From NCBI GenBank assembly GCA_021819825.1, contig JAKAEZ010000006.1:37332-101331 (forward strand): a DNA stretch of 64,000 bases. Reading direction: 5' to 3'. The notes beneath the pieces are model-generated. The model saw only the letters and a list, made by a program, of their open reading frames with translations, was not told where the DNA came from and did no database searches. Of the stretch, positions 63,286 to 64,000 are shown piece by piece. The position numbers were made by a program, and so were the translations under genes. Positions within the stretch are counted from its first letter, which is position 1. Each line of letters opens with the position of its first letter. Source of the stretch: Planctomycetota bacterium. Lineage in GTDB: Bacteria; Planctomycetota; Phycisphaerae; WQYP01.

Positions 63286-63410
63286 AGTCCCGCTCAATAT
63301 ACCCCTGCAAAGATCACCAGCCAATTCGCCGGGACCCCTTCAGGGCGCACCAAAACAACCGGGGCAAATCATAGAGCGCCCGGGGGTTACTGGGAAGTCA
63401 ATAGAGTAAA

Positions 63411-63440
63411 AAACTCCGCGGGTAGGATTCGAACCTACAA
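63411..63440. repeat. 30-bp direct repeat, left copy (tRNA 3' end)
   Basis: AAACTCCGCGGGTAGGATTC and the ten bases after it are identical to 63751-63780. The pair brackets the GIY-YIG gene, 340 bp apart. It corresponds to the T-arm and 3' acceptor strand of tRNA-Asn plus three trailing bases. Confidence 0.92.
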
Positions 63441-63493
63441 TCCCGATAGCCATCGGGATTAATCCCGGCTCGCCGGGACTCTACCATTGAGCA
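63414..63493 (-). pseudogene. tRNA-like remnant A (lacks 5' acceptor strand)
   Basis: On the minus strand it has a D-arm (GCTCAATGGTAGAG), then two palindromes TCCCGGCGAGCCGGGA and AATCCCGATGGCTATCGGGA.. in place of the anticodon arm, then the tRNA-Asn T-arm and 3' acceptor. The matching 5' acceptor bases are absent, so it cannot fold as a tRNA. Its D-arm side is also read as the last codons of the GIY-YIG gene. Confidence 0.75.
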
Positions 63494-63752
63494 GTTGCTC
63501 GCGAATCCAGCGGGCTGATTTCATGGCTTTGATCTGCCGTTCTCGCCGTACCGCGGAACTTCGTGACGGATGGGCCTCCGACCATCGCATCACCCATGGG
63601 CCTCTGGCTCGCGTATATTTAAAGGCGGAATCCGCTGACTGGTCATTGTGTTGCTGAAATCGGCGTTGGAGGTCCTCCGTGCTTCCGACATAAAATCGTC
63701 CCGCAGGATTTTCCAAAACATAGACCCAGAATTCGTGAGAAGAGTCATCCAA
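63459..63752 (-). CDS. Small GIY-YIG nuclease (UPF0213-like) embedded in tRNA-like sequence
   Basis: A 97-residue single-domain GIY-YIG protein. The catalytic features are visible: VYVLENPAGRFYVGSTEDLQ with the Y...YVG pair, then RRFQQHN, and the helix SRSSAVRRERQIKAMKS with the Glu of the RERQIK motif. The start is TTG 63752, two bases past the 3' end of tRNA-Asn. The closing residues LLNGRVPASRD are encoded by the tRNA-like D-arm and a palindrome of remnant A. Such proteins are usually harmless housekeeping-size nucleases of unknown role, but here the gene looks like the insert of a tRNA-targeting element. Confidence 0.85.
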   Translation of the reverse strand: MDDSSHEFWVYVLENPAGRFYVGSTEDLQRRFQQHNDQSADSAFKYTRARGPWVMRWSEAHPSRSSAVRRERQIKAMKSARWIREQLLNGRVPASRD

Positions 63753-63780
63753 ACTCCGCGGGTAGGATTCGAACCTACAA
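63751..63780. repeat. 30-bp direct repeat, right copy (tRNA-Asn 3' end)
   Basis: Identical to 63411-63440; this copy lies within the intact tRNA-Asn gene. Confidence 0.92.
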
Positions 63781-63825
63781 CCGATCGGTTAACAGCCGAT
63801 TGCTCTACCATTGAGCTACCGCGGA
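63754..63825 (-). tRNA. tRNA-Asn(GTT)
   Basis: A 72-base cloverleaf. Acceptor TCCGCGG pairs with CCGCGGA, with G as discriminator. The D-arm is GCTCAATGGTAGAGC, the anticodon arm ATCGG-CTGTTAA-CCGAT with anticodon GTT (63791-63793 on the plus strand), and the T-arm GTAGG-TTCGAAT-CCTAC. CCA is not encoded. Confidence 0.92.
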
Positions 63826-63849
63826 AAAAAGGCTTCCGCTAAATTTATA

Positions 63850-63927
63850 CTATCGGAGCCGGACTCGAGCCGACAACCGATCGGTTAATCCCGGCGCGCC
63901 GGGACTCTACCATTGAGCTACCGCGGA
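63850..63927 (-). pseudogene. tRNA-like remnant C (chimeric acceptor ends)
   Basis: It has the tRNA-Asn 5' acceptor (TCCGCGG) and D-arm, two palindromes (TCCCGGCGCGCCGGGA and AACCGATCGGTT) in place of the anticodon arm, and a different T-arm (GTCGG-CTCGAGT-CCGGC) with an acceptor end that does not pair. I do not think it is a working tRNA. Confidence 0.65.
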
Positions 63928-64000
63928 AAAAAGGCTTCCGCCAAATTTATACTATCGGAGCCGGACTCGAGCCGACAATCCGATCGGTTAATCCCGGCGC
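63851..64000. repeat. Tandem 102-bp tRNA-like repeat array, running off the window
   Basis: The sequence beginning TATCGGAGCCGGACTCGAGC occurs at 63851 and again at 63953, 102 bp apart, with one inserted T and otherwise near identity through the window edge. The A-run and GGCTTCCGC linker at 63826 and 63928 repeats with the same 102-bp period. On the minus strand each linker carries a TATAAA box before the next tRNA-like unit. Confidence 0.85.

Follow-up and report, generated by a model that had tools for sequence, protein, structure and literature searches.

Small stand-alone GIY-YIG nucleases that act on single-stranded DNA, the Ssn enzymes, occur in Neisseria together with NTS, a palindromic repeat of the genome with a core similar to TCCCG..CGGGA, which they cleave site-specifically in single-stranded form. 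To our knowledge, neither tRNA chimeras nor insertion into tRNA genes has been described for this pair. In REPtrons, the gene for a REP-associated tyrosine transposase (RAYT) is bracketed by repetitive extragenic palindromic (REP) sequences that are also dispersed elsewhere in the genome (PMC3733652), and in rRNA genes of the candidate phyla radiation (CPR), GIY-YIG-encoding insertion sequences that are not group I or group II introns lie mostly at the tops or bases of stem-loops (PMC11270868). Here we describe a locus in a planctomycete metagenome-assembled genome (MAG; G000, 2.49 Mb, 68% complete), located in a 64,000-nucleotide stretch at the right end of a contig (G000:C39:37332-101331), which we call the window. 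At this locus, a GIY-YIG nuclease gene stands between an intact tRNA-Asn and a damaged tRNA-Asn copy that carries REP-like palindromes. Since the same pattern is found at many tRNA genes in two phyla, it looks like a type of mobile element that has not been described. We favor, at a probability of about 0.55, a compact mobile (or formerly mobile) element in which the gene for a GIY-YIG nuclease is combined with REP-like palindromes, commonly of the form TCC[C/G]..[C/G]GGA, and which enters tRNA genes with partial duplication of the tRNA.

Read along the minus strand, the locus starts with tandem tRNA chimeras, which the contig end truncates; tRNA-Asn, the GIY-YIG open reading frame (ORF), a further tRNA-Asn chimera, and an lptD-like gene follow. 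The intact tRNA-Asn (GUU; 63754-63825, minus strand) scores 75.5 bits against Rfam RF00005, is placed by ARAGORN at 63753-63826, and folds as a cloverleaf at -27.9 kcal/mol. The ORF (63459-63752, minus strand; 97 amino acids; PF01541, E=1.3e-16) has a TTG start one base beyond the tRNA 3' end, so the gene is probably co-transcribed with tRNA-Asn in G000. An earlier note on this DNA had correctly seen that the gene abuts the tRNA, but had counted two bases between them. It had also reported that a perfect 30-bp repeat of the tRNA-Asn 3' end flanks the gene, and both copies of this repeat (family D2) are indeed exact, one at the intact tRNA 3' end (63751-63780) and the other downstream of the gene (63411-63440). 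The ORF is the only recognizable gene in the 340-bp unit between the repeats.

The downstream repeat copy belongs to a chimera (63411-63494, minus strand) made of the tRNA-Asn D-arm, two successive palindromes, and the T-arm with the 3' acceptor half; Rfam matches it as a weak, sub-threshold tRNA (63422-63492, 22.2 bits). The first palindrome, TCCCGGCTCGCCGGGA (TCCCGGC..GCCGGGA; 63463-63478), folds as a stem and replaces the 5' half of the anticodon arm. The second, TCCCGATAGCCATCGGGA (63441-63458), replaces the 3' half and is also present in the upstream chimera of a related genome, G006. The flanks of the palindromes in the window are the tRNA bases GAG and TTAA. In G000, the reading frame of the nuclease gene continues into this damaged tRNA copy, as its C-terminus (LLNGRVPASRD, 11 residues plus stop) is encoded by CTGCTCAATGGTAGAG, the D-arm of the tRNA copy, followed by the perfect palindrome TCCCGGCGAGCCGGGA and then TTAA. 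This TTAA belongs to the anticodon loop, so the stop codon TAA (63459-63461, minus strand) is taken from the tRNA-Asn copy. The last 11 residues are thus read from the tRNA remnant, as the earlier note had proposed, but the remnant that encodes them is a chimera with two palindromes rather than a simple fragment. Such a peptide is not a general need of these proteins, since stop codons precede it in Verrucomicrobium sp. BvORR034.

The encoded protein belongs to the GIY-YIG superfamily: all 11 members of our alignment (A1) match PF01541, and Y11, G18, Y21, G23, H35, E59, A67, E71, and K75 are invariant across them. By similarity it groups with small UPF0213-like GIY-YIG proteins, with the solved structures 1zg2 (E=5e-17) and 1ywl (E=1e-14) as leading profile matches, followed by SLX1 (E ~1e-7 to 1e-5). 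Comparison with two relatives gave nonsynonymous (dN) and synonymous (dS) divergences of 0.07-0.12 and 0.64-0.93 (dN/dS ~0.09), and the gene is under purifying selection. A group I or group II intron around the ORF was considered and rejected; Rfam found no intron family in 63300-64000, and a match to TIGR01453 falls far under its cut-off.

The repeated association of GIY-YIG genes with tRNA genes, which the earlier note had named as a check on a mobile element, is widespread and always on the same strand. We searched 294 genomes of the phylum Planctomycetota with an 11-member profile and found a tRNA or transfer-messenger RNA (tmRNA) gene within 200 bp of 48 of 150 matches. After named loci were added and duplicates removed, 57 of 148 unique domains had such a gene within 250 bp, a fraction that does not hold for all GIY-YIG proteins since the profile was seeded with tRNA-adjacent members; all 57 pairs are on the same strand. 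In Verrucomicrobiota, 15 of 33 lie near a tRNA or tmRNA gene, again all on the same strand (15/15), which brings the two phyla together to 72 of 72. By comparison, none of 30 loci of the PemK toxin family, used as a control, had a tRNA within 500 bp. Among the named examples are Verrucomicrobium sp. BvORR034, a Prosthecobacter MAG, a Pelagicoccus MAG, and Phycisphaerae. Closely related GIY-YIG genes occupy different tRNA genes. On a tree with few columns and many weak forks, the tRNA partner differs between close relatives and adjacency to tRNA is clustered by clade (15 changes versus 45 in shuffles). As a separate observation, five loci (L020, L101, L106, L111, and L288) have a GIY-YIG gene near the 3' side of a tmRNA gene, on the same strand, in some cases with other palindromes in between.

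Partial copies of the adjacent tRNA are found at 26 of 46 tRNA-near loci, on one side or on both, commonly with palindromes. Left copies consist of the tRNA 5' end and right copies of the 3' end, with one intact tRNA left; at tRNA-Pro, Val, Ala, and Arg, it is the 5' part that is duplicated, and the gene precedes the intact tRNA. Palindromes interrupt or replace the anticodon arm in copies of ten tRNA species (Asn, Pro, Ile, Ala, Arg, Val, Met, Tyr, Ser, and His), and also lie in the D-loop of Val and in the T-arm or T-loop of His and Asn. The partial copies are of Asn, Pro, Ile, Ala, Arg, and Val, and in Verrucomicrobiota of Arg, Met, Tyr, Ser, His, and Pro. At one locus (L282), two tRNA-Ser copies are interrupted by the same palindromic block at the identical anticodon-loop position, with no loss of a tRNA base, and these two copies bracket an intact tRNA-Ser and the gene. 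In another genome (G103), one paralogue lies at tRNA-Arg and another at tRNA-Ala; gene and palindrome (CCCGATGTnACATCGGGG) are common to both, while each is flanked by the 5' part of its own tRNA. When each partial copy was compared with its own tRNA and with other tRNAs of the same isotype, its own was the best match or tied in 31 of 31 cases (22 better, 9 ties, 0 worse). The tRNA part therefore originates in the local target or is kept similar to it. Chance is excluded as the source of the pattern at the locus because the 30-mer is exact, second copies of the gene exist, and the pattern recurs in two phyla.

The earlier note's comparison to RAYT-REP pairs, with a different enzyme family, is borne out, as palindromes accompany the gene and are dispersed in the genome. 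In G000, the 16-mer palindrome has 34 sites (at most one mismatch) versus 1 for a mirrored control pattern, and across seven genomes the palindromes number 121 versus 6. An enzyme gene combined with a dispersed palindromic repeat is also the arrangement of Ssn and NTS. A REPtron likewise has a nuclease-type gene bracketed by dispersed palindromes, but its enzyme is a tyrosine (IS200-like) transposase (PMC3733652), whereas here it is a GIY-YIG protein with tRNA-derived flanks. The dispersed 16-mer copies in G000 have no common flanks, and about 10 exact copies without shared flanks rule out that the palindrome is always accompanied by tRNA sequence. Copies of TCCCGGCGCGCCGGGA, a palindrome of the window's chimeras, at G000:C45:4327-4999 (L050, L051) and G000:C12:23272 (L043) replace a local hairpin arm or loop relative to a sibling copy. 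These cases suggested that dispersed copies generally replace hairpin loops, which is not evident in other genomes.

GIY-YIG genes are also found beside other repeats and in other RNA genes. The gene stands between inverted repeats that exceed the 99% level of mismatched pairs in 26 of 142 cases, and it has CGTC-type REP motifs on either side in 25 of 148 (e.g., L030, L031, and L165), versus 1 in a distal control. CGTC-tagged REPs such as dRS3 of Neisseria resemble our palindromes in being short, with a conserved core, dispersed in the genome, and also present as inverted pairs (PMC3733652); the palindromes of the window differ in having no unpaired CGTC tag next to the stem and in being embedded in tRNA copies. 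The CGTC-flanked genes occupy another part of the GIY-YIG tree. As described in 2013, CGTC REPs seem to have no dedicated transposase (PMC3733652), and it is possible that GIY-YIG proteins are their enzyme partner. In addition, GIY-YIG ORFs lie within 23S rRNA genes in stem-forming inserts (L024, L028/L040, and L221), matching the CPR insertions as GIY-YIG ORFs in structured RNA genes; those of CPR bacteria interrupt the rRNA itself (PMC11270868), whereas at our locus a duplicated tRNA copy is interrupted and the intact tRNA retained. At L221, a match to a group I intron also lies just beyond the large-subunit rRNA match.

Upstream of tRNA-Asn, the arrangement extends farther than had been described. 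A first chimera (63851-63928, minus strand) combines the 5' half of tRNA-Asn, the palindrome TCCCGGCGCGCCGGGA (63889-63904), and a different T-arm, in a 102-bp tandem-repeat unit. A second (63953-64000, minus strand) is cut by the contig end, and the array resumes at C56:1-261. Where tRNA-Asn reads ..GGTAGAG CAATCGGCTG TTAACCGATCGG.., chimeras read ..GGTAGAG TCCCGGCGCGCCGGGA TTAACCGATCGG... Contig C56 starts with the chimera array, followed by tRNA-Phe, tRNA-Cys, and polA. Contigs C39 and C56 are probably neighbors, because the relatives G003 and G006 carry the same order, tRNA-Phe, chimera, and tRNA-Asn, on single contigs. The 102-bp tandem tRNA-like repeats, at 63803-64000 and G000:C56:1-261, break the assembly. 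The idea that the chimeras generally fold as cloverleaves was not supported, as two of them gave z-scores of -0.6 and -0.9 in RNA folding.

Filled and empty sites of the gene exist; a homing endonuclease cassette would cleave the empty allele and be copied into it. Among the eight genomes of the genus, the gene is present in G003 and G005 and its tail stands at a contig end in G007, while G001, G002, G004, and G006 have no GIY-YIG match (4 of 8; two of the four are >90% complete). In G006, tRNA-Asn is joined directly to the sequence that lies beyond the chimera in G000 (95% identity over 1510 bp); in a second filled/empty pair, the empty site of G002 matches the gene tail of G007. Second copies are present in G000 (contig C71) and G005. 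The gene is thus not fixed at one locus in all relatives, and the intact tRNA-Asn, the empty sites, and the second copies fit the proposal of an element at tRNA-Asn that leaves the tRNA intact. Four other genomes (G267, G069, G157, and G103) have 9 to 14 GIY-YIG matches each; multiple matches per genome suggest spread within a genome.

We infer that the nuclease drives the movement of the element. The enzyme would recognize either the palindrome or a tRNA hairpin that single-stranded or cruciform DNA exposes, and its cut may fall in a loop, for which it would have a preference. If the target is partially duplicated in tandem during repair, the outcome could be a damaged tRNA copy, the intact tRNA with the GIY-YIG gene, and a second damaged copy, so that the host would keep a working tRNA. 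A more general version, which is tentative and on balance doubtful, is a family of mobile elements whose GIY-YIG nuclease targets hairpin loops, placing palindromes into tRNA anticodon, D-, and T-loops and 23S rRNA loops, with duplication sparing one RNA gene and with DNA secondary structure, rather than one sequence, as the target.

Several points weigh against a mobile GIY-YIG element. Besides the seeding of the survey profile, most of the data are draft MAGs, and 91 of the 148 domains have no RNA gene nearby. The 30-bp direct repeats allow deletion by homologous recombination, therefore an empty site need not be ancestral, and because of these repeats deletion is indistinguishable from insertion in the filled/empty pairs. 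Tyrosine-integrase islands use the same 30-bp tRNA-Asn repeat as their attachment site. Upstream chimeras in the G000 genus could have come from unequal crossover of adjacent tRNA-Phe and tRNA-Asn. Finally, G006 and G002 carry chimeras without a GIY-YIG gene, so that chimeras can persist or arise without the gene in cis. Gene-free chimeras would be expected if the association is passive, with tRNA genes as recombination hotspots, slippage or template switching at palindromes damaging tRNA copies, and the nuclease gene hitchhiking. The tandem expansion of the 102-bp unit in the G000 genus fits this as well, as does a tandem duplication of promoter and tRNA at a tRNA-His locus (L037). We nevertheless consider passive association unlikely, given the strict same-strand rule, the PemK control, and the same palindrome at the same tRNA position in two different tRNAs with paralogous genes; also, the strict TCCCG-type Asn chimera occurs in only 1 of the 294 phylum genomes, the window's own.

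A slightly weaker case can be made that tyrosine-integrase islands, with the tRNA-Asn 3' end as attB, carried the gene as cargo, and that the 30-bp repeats are the attL and attR left after island loss. Contig C71 (L009, G000:C71:1-6000) has a GIY-YIG copy, next the tRNA-Asn 3' end, and after it a tyrosine integrase (PF00589, E=4e-18), an S24/helix-turn-helix repressor, and IS21 istA/istB genes, and in G005:C94 the end of an island abuts the tRNA 3' end, followed by GIY-YIG. Over 283 bp the C71 and C94 gene copies show no difference, whereas identity in the polA region is 78%, which reflects either recent transfer or mis-binning. Islands at tRNA 3' ends also share with our locus the tRNA 3'-end direct repeat and the preserved intact tRNA. 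In contrast, the 340-bp unit has no integrase, and the 5'-part duplications with an intact tRNA after the gene are not integrase geometry; anticodon-arm palindromes, the many tRNA species, and the occurrence in two phyla are left unexplained. As the repeat serves these islands and the 5' half is duplicated at other tRNAs, the earlier note's reading of the 30-bp repeat as the element's own end is not supported. The islands may carry or reshuffle the GIY-YIG unit.

Least probable is a domesticated function, in which chimeras and intact tRNA serve as RNase P/Z processing signals, or tRNA or tRNA-like RNA is the substrate of the nuclease, and the locus is kept for expression rather than mobility: the start codon one base past the tRNA, the constant strand, the low dN/dS, and a folded G003 chimera that retains the palindrome stem and T-arm hairpin are in its favor, but the gene is missing from several highly complete genomes of the same genus, copies are broken in G023 and G018, and the tRNA partner switches between close paralogues.

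A mobile GIY-YIG element would supply REP-like palindromes with a candidate enzyme and with a natural record of their insertion. Assemblies break at such loci, which also yield false protein C-termini and doubtful tRNA calls, and their marks, an anticodon-arm palindrome and a partial tRNA beside an intact one, are searchable in any genome. The finding would unite GIY-YIG insertions in tRNA loops with those in rRNA stem-loops (PMC11270868) as one process, and suggests a route of invasion into tRNA genes that differs from that of the tyrosine integrases.
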